From assembly GCA_019638775.1 (NCBI GenBank), contig JAHBTD010000001.1, forward strand, positions 806,001-870,000: a stretch of 64,000 nucleotides of DNA, given 5' to 3'. Below, in pieces: positions 42,851 through 43,057 of this stretch (its first letter is position 1; each line of letters begins with the position of its first letter). This stretch comes from Fimbriimonadaceae bacterium (GTDB lineage: Bacteria; Armatimonadota; Fimbriimonadia; Fimbriimonadales; Fimbriimonadaceae). Below the pieces are notes generated by a model. The model made no database searches, was not told where the DNA came from, and worked only from the letters and a program-made list of their open reading frames with translations. Made by a program: the position numbers and the translations under genes.

Positions 42851-42867
42851 TTTCTTCTCCTGTCGTT

Positions 42868-42946
42868 TCTGGACGCGATGCCCATGAAGAAAGGCTTCGC
42901 GCACTCCAGACGGTTACAGTCCTTGCGGACGGGGTTGTTGTAACCG
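42868..42946 (-). ncRNA. Structured nadA leader, probable NAD+-I (nadA-motif) riboswitch
   Basis: On the minus strand the nadA 5' UTR forms two adjacent hairpins. The upstream one (42946-42911) has P1 CGGTTAC/GTAACCG, a 9-base internal strand AACAACCCC, and P2 GTCC/GGAC closed by a GCAA tetraloop, with a single U opposite the internal strand. From memory this is the architecture of the first domain of the nadA-motif riboswitch of Acidobacteria: P1, AACAACCCC, P2, U, P1'. The downstream hairpin (42910-42868) pairs TCTGGA/TCCAGA and CGCGA/TCGCG, and ends about seven bases from the AGGAG Shine-Dalgarno, suiting translational control. The second domain lacks an AACAACCCC copy. Confidence 0.75.
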
Positions 42947-42957
42947 CTCTTATCCTT

Positions 42958-42963
42958 ATTATA
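42958..42963 (-). promoter_or_regulatory. -10 box (TATAAT) of nadA
   Basis: Perfect TATAAT on the minus strand, 12 bases upstream of the riboswitch-like leader. The -35 at 17-18 bp spacing (ATCTTC or TATCTT) is weak. Confidence 0.6.
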
Positions 42964-42964
42964 C

Positions 42965-42997
42965 GACCCGCGTCTCTCTTGAAGATAGACGCGGGTC
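42965..42997. promoter_or_regulatory. 11-bp inverted repeat abutting the nadA -10 box
   Basis: GACCCGCGTCT / AGACGCGGGTC with an 11-base spacer covering the expected -35 and spacer of the nadA promoter. It could be an operator or a second terminator-like hairpin after the lipoprotein gene. Confidence 0.5.
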
Positions 42998-43003
42998 CAA
43001 AGG

Positions 43004-43036
43004 CAAAAGAACGGGCCGCTCCCGAAGAAGCGGCCC
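43004..43036 (-). terminator. Rho-independent terminator after the pseudopilin-lipoprotein pair
   Basis: Stem GGGCCGCT/AGCGGCCC (43013-43020 with 43029-43036), followed on the minus strand by GTTCTTTTG. It lies 21 bases after the lipoprotein stop. Confidence 0.8.
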
Positions 43037-43057
43037 ACTCCTATGCTGCACGGAGTC

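Follow-up and report, generated by a model that had tools for sequence, protein, structure and literature searches.

A single-domain RNA element with the NAD+-I pocket core upstream of nadA in Armatimonadota

The closest described relatives of the RNA considered here belong to the NAD+-I (nadA motif) class of riboswitches. The published class comprises 101 examples confined to Acidobacteria (PMC7749635), and a nearly identical second domain is described as invariably following the motif (PMC10702441). In the crystal structure of domain 1 from C. koribacter, the core reads CA-ACAACCCC-G ... C-UG (PMC7297122). The bound ADP packs against the C:G pair that is penultimate in the P1 helix, is stacked on A8, and is held by a Mg2+ bound to the bulge (PMC7297122). 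Published domain 1 further has a P1a helix of 7 bp and a GYG internal loop, J2, that pairs with a C4 stretch.

The window analyzed here is a stretch of 64,000 nucleotides from a Fimbriimonadaceae bacterium of the Armatimonadota (contig JAHBTD010000001.1, positions 806,001 to 870,000) and thus lies outside Acidobacteria. It encodes a quinolinate synthase whose identity as nadA is secure (Table 1). On the minus strand, the leader of this gene reads, 5' to 3' from 42947 to 42910, GCGGTTACA-ACAACCCC-GTCC-GCAA-GGAC-TGTAACCGT. Every sequence element that a first-pass annotation had described in this leader, i.e., P1, an adjoining strand, a second helix with a GCAA loop and the closing half of P1, was found. 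Its statement that the strand is identical to that of the crystallized Acidobacteria domain 1 was correct, as C. koribacter reads ...UUCAACAACCCCG...CUGGA... (PMC7297122), and its description of the class as Acidobacteria-only agrees with the published count. The pairing had to be redrawn: what had been drawn as a 9-base strand opposite a single U is better described as an 8-nt bulge next to an A-U pair, the arrangement of the published structure.

Table 1. Features of the nadA locus and its leader in the window
Feature	Coordinates	Strand	Evidence
nadA, quinolinate synthase, 366 aa	41750..42850	-	Pfam NadA E 5.6e-96; NCBIfam TIGR00550 304.8 bits, above cut-off
Shine-Dalgarno AGGAG	42857..42861	-	sequence
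Second hairpin, aptamer to Shine-Dalgarno	42869..42909	-	stable fold z -3.67; without RF03013 or R1 match
Whole single-domain NAD+-I-like aptamer (putative): P1 9 bp, 8-nt bulge, P1a 4 bp, GCAA loop	42910..42947	-	sequence, RF03013, R1/R2 models, fold
P1 3' strand TGTAACCGT	42910..42918	-	sequence; covariation
P1a 3' strand GGAC	42922-42919	-	sequence
GCAA tetraloop of P1a	42926-42923	-	sequence
P1a 5' strand GTCC	42930-42927	-	sequence
J1 bulge ACAACCCC	42931..42938	-	sequence; ACANCCCC exact in 73/78 leaders (others: one A8C, four C13U)
P1 5' strand GCGGTTACA, final CA pairing with UG	42939..42947	-	sequence; CA invariant 78/78
-10 box TATAAT, 19 nt ahead of J1 bulge	42958..42963	-	consensus match alone

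Folded alone, the hairpin at 42947-42910 reached -15.8 kcal/mol (z -3.95), and none of 200 shuffled sequences was equally stable. The Rfam nadA model (RF03013) matched the leader at 42945-42912 with E 3e-6 in a 501-base search; this match, at 34.5 bits, is just below the gathering cut-off of 37.5 bits. The alignment retains P1, the bulge and the outer part of P1a; the 32 model positions with the internal loop and P1b are passed over. No Rfam 15 family reached its gathering score anywhere in the window. A model built from leader family f13 only, R2, from which the window sequence was absent, found the element with E 6.8e-5, the sole match at E<=0.01 in that genome (E-values of R2, and of the model R1 described below, are rough). 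The fold, the RF03013 match and the R2 match together argue that the hairpin did not arise by chance; it is real and strongly conserved. The proposal that a known NAD+-I riboswitch precedes nadA holds for the pocket core of domain 1 and for its position, but not for membership of the tandem class.

Relative to NAD+-I domain 1, the window retains the CA/UG end of P1, the bulge, which is identical to that of C. koribacter domain 1, and the G-C pair at the opening of P1a, but it lacks the 7-bp P1a and the J2-C4 pairing. The Armatimonadota element in general resembles domain 1 (RF03013) in the CA/UG end, the 8-nt ACANCCCC bulge, the G-C pair that opens P1a and the location upstream of nadA. It differs in that P1a varies from 3 to 10 bp, with loops short or long, instead of being fixed at 7 bp, in having no clear GYG loop and no tandem second domain, and in its occurrence in Armatimonadota instead of Acidobacteria. 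NAD+-I domain 2 is likewise a bulged hairpin without J2, and its P1 adjoins or contains the ribosome binding site, as in most families here. However, the bulge of domain 2 has 7 nt (PMC7297122), whereas the Armatimonadota element has the 8-nt bulge of the domain-1 type, and it stands without a domain 1. The ubiB variant of the nadA motif (PMC7297122) shares the 8-nt bulge and the penultimate C:G pair; it differs from the Armatimonadota element in retaining J2, the P1a of 7 bp and a second stem-loop.

The copy in the window turned out to be one of many. RF03013 had matches at E<=0.02 in 34 of 291 Armatimonadota genomes, many of them directly upstream of nadA, and none of the 291 genomes had a match over the cut-off. 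NadA was located in 151 Armatimonadota genomes, and their nadA leaders were collected. A first scan for the combination of bulge, P1 and P1a was positive in 56 of 142 leaders, whereas shuffled leaders gave 1.0 matches on average and 4 at most; one match among the 56 (genome G153) was judged to be due to chance. With newly found leaders added and the f13 form allowed, the element was present in 78 of 159 nadA leaders. These fall into eight families: f1 (26/74), f13 (16/16), f3 (15/15, not an unbiased rate because the f3 set was fetched on model matches), f19 (10/10), f2 (6/7), f12 (3/11), f4 (1/1) and f14 (1/1), and other families had none.

The element precedes two NadA subfamilies. Model R1, which was built without family f3, recovered 15 f3 leaders outside its training set, all ahead of NF006878 NadA instead of NF006884. 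At E<=0.01, 58 of the 60 R1 matches were nadA leaders; R2 gave more stray matches than R1 in other genomes. Every verified case was linked to nadA alone. A pattern scan of viral contigs for the element found nothing, and a literature search that did not extend to the original class papers (Malkowski 2019, Weinberg 2017) yielded no report of an Armatimonadota form. Our genome search covered Armatimonadota, and the element may be distributed beyond this phylum.

Alignment of other Armatimonadota nadA leaders, a check that had been suggested for the window, found the bulge strand and its flanking helices kept in relatives. All 78 leaders have the same C and A at the end of P1, and the bulge bases are invariant too except for a free N, one A8C and four C13U changes. 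It is these near-invariant positions, in the C:G pair and in the bulge, that touch ADP and Mg2+ in the crystallized RNA. The UG partner, which the 78-leader search required, is invariant in alignments A2 and A4. In a covariation test, which is biased because the sequences were chosen partly by pairing, 39 distinct non-f13 sequences had 119 both-side changes that still paired, compared with 39.8 +/- 5.0 after shuffling (0/500 shuffles). The covariation score of this set was 0.607 versus 0.158 shuffled and was lost when the partner strand was slid, and the f13 alignment had 24 covarying cells versus 4.8 shuffled. When sequences were picked by the bulge string alone, P1 and P1a flanked 64 of 72 nadA-leader copies versus 0 of 14 background copies, the latter a small sample. 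The bulge-string test, the recovery of f3 by R1 and the match of R2 to the window are three less circular checks, and they agree with the pairing covariation.

Several natural variants were observed. In one nadA leader (L301, genome G123), P1 and P1a are intact and the bulge reads CCAUCCCC, i.e., A8 is replaced by C; this leader is a natural test of the base on which ADP is stacked in the crystallized domain. Four f13 leaders (L216, L219, L230 and L243) have U at bulge C13, and P1 of family f13 has a 3/1 internal loop beside the bulge. P1a loops track stem length across f1, f2 and f19, with GNRA-like loops on several 4-bp stems, and UNNAAC loops recur across families on 6-bp GUCCCG/CGGGAC P1a stems.

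The best overall explanation of these data, to which we assign a probability of roughly three in four, is a J2-less NAD+-I-type sensor whose ligand-stabilized P1 turns nadA off. We infer that the single-domain RNA binds NAD+ through the ADP moiety. The ADP half of NAD+, together with Mg2+, would sit in a pocket made by the ACANCCCC bulge and the CA/UG end of P1, and binding would stabilize P1. That a pocket without J2 is able to bind is supported by one study (PMC7708056) and contested by another (PMC10702441). In the former, domain 1 bound ADP and NAD+ even when the G contacts of J2 had been removed by the G36A/G38A mutation, domain 2 bound ADP weakly (3.4 mM), J2 placed the affinity of domain 1 about 35-fold above that of domain 2, and cellular NAD+ is given as millimolar (PMC7708056). 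In the latter, isolated domain II showed no binding (PMC10702441).

The same pocket could have ATP, ADP or another ADP-containing cofactor as its physiological ligand, in which case nadA would follow adenylate pools. Published domain 1 reads the ADP moiety only, full-length NAD+-I cannot exclude ATP (PMC10702441, PMC7297122), and domain 2, the proposed reader of nicotinamide, is absent here. However, the linkage to nadA alone in all verified cases points to NAD+, and we consider an adenylate ligand unlikely.

The Armatimonadota element is a single-domain variant with the NAD+-I pocket core and is not the published tandem riboswitch. Matches at E<=0.01 gave one element per genome, bar one weak extra each in G168 (R1) and G185 (R2). 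A -10-like box lies ahead of the element in 56 of 78 leaders, versus 15% in shuffles, and mostly ends 15-36 nt before the bulge; f13 leaders are mostly without a recognizable box there. A box this close to the element places it, in most leaders, at the start of the predicted transcript, which leaves no domain ahead of it to be transcribed. In the window, too, the position of TATAAT places the aptamer at the opening of the predicted nadA transcript. No clear case of J2 as a GYG internal loop occurred in the 78 leaders, including those with longer P1a stems, one leader (G038, f12) being ambiguous, and the window hairpin is without J2, a 7-bp P1a or P1b. Searches of the window for a second bulged domain yielded no further RF03013 or R1 match.

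The first-pass annotation took the leader for the tandem riboswitch already described, with a second domain that has diverged. A stable second hairpin (z -3.67) does sit where domain 2 would, but it is without the ACANCCCC bulge, has no model match and is not kept in sequence in relatives, and we rejected it in that role; it is possibly an expression platform. The tandem reading is further opposed by the single element per genome found with R1 and R2 (the two weak extras aside), by a first domain without J2, and by the other families, in which only 6-38 nt separate P1 from the start codon, little or no room for another domain; it is thus highly improbable. Because it has no second domain, as the published definition demands, and scores below the Rfam cut-off, the element stands outside NAD+-I as published. 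A protein-binding or mRNA-stabilizing 5' hairpin with no small-molecule ligand would suit a location at or near the predicted transcript 5' end but is very unlikely, as the near-invariant bases are the ADP and Mg2+ contacts of the NAD+-I structure and a mere stabilizing hairpin would not retain an 8-nt bulge.

For the J2-less NAD+-I-type sensor, the leader layout suggests how nadA might be controlled. In seven of the eight families, the P1 end is separated from the start codon by a median of 11.5-18 nt, directly 5' of the Shine-Dalgarno sequence; f1, the family of the window, has a median distance of 47 nt, and in the window it is 59 nt. The adjacency in families other than f1 suggests that a ligand-stabilized P1 blocks translation. 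In most families, a stable P1 beside the Shine-Dalgarno sequence would hinder 30S loading and turn nadA off when NAD+ is plentiful, whereas in f1 the second hairpin between P1 and the Shine-Dalgarno sequence would have to relay the signal. Hindrance of 30S loading by P1 is the most economical reading and fits the OFF behavior of the class (PMC10702441). Stable hairpins between P1 and the Shine-Dalgarno sequence are general in f1 (Stouffer -4.4). In the window, the Shine-Dalgarno sequence is predicted to be accessible with P1 formed, which counts against the blocking model there.

No conserved alternative switching structure was found in the leaders examined. A UUUCUUC loop had suggested by eye that the f1 linker pairs with the Shine-Dalgarno sequence, but such pairing was not above shuffles over 24 leaders (Stouffer -0.005). 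In f3 and f19, an anti-P1 hairpin upstream of the element was not consistently kept, and both candidates were dropped. In f13 leaders (e.g., L215 and L222), the 5' strand of P1, GGGCGAUGU, is able to form an alternative hairpin with the bulge, ACAUCCCC, and this hairpin would exclude P1. Compared with chance, such a bulge-P1 hairpin gave a weak signal in f13 (Stouffer -1.9) and a stronger one in f3 (-3.9), and the GGGCGAUGU/ACAUCCCC hairpin of f13 is suggestive, not statistically clear.

Two further structures were seen upstream of the nadA leader in the window. A perfect 11-bp inverted repeat, GACCCGCGTCT/AGACGCGGGTC, at 42965-42997 stops one base short of the nadA TATAAT, covers the -35 position and occurs nowhere else in the window; it may serve as a transcription-factor operator. 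A strong terminator-like hairpin on the minus strand at 43007-43042, upstream of the nadA promoter, probably closes the preceding gene.

What is new here is the one-domain form, found in about half of the Armatimonadota nadA leaders examined, of a class known before as two-domain and from Acidobacteria. Some 78 single-domain relatives in a second phylum nearly double the published count of 101. Neither the second domain nor the J2 contact is present in these relatives, which are relevant to the dispute over whether NAD+ can be sensed by a lone domain lacking J2 and to the reason why the described class is tandem. The element lies upstream of nadA in two cultured type strains, Fimbriimonas ginsengisoli Gsoil 348 (G080, element at 926807-926848 of contig 1) and Chthonomonas calidirosea T49 (G045), which makes a test practical. 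We also suggest, tentatively and as the less probable outcome, that the free-standing J2-less domain may be a minimal and possibly older NAD+-I sensor, in which an adenylate pocket and a P1 that gates the ribosome would respond to millimolar NAD+ or to ADP moieties in general, the Acidobacterial tandem having perhaps arisen by duplication.
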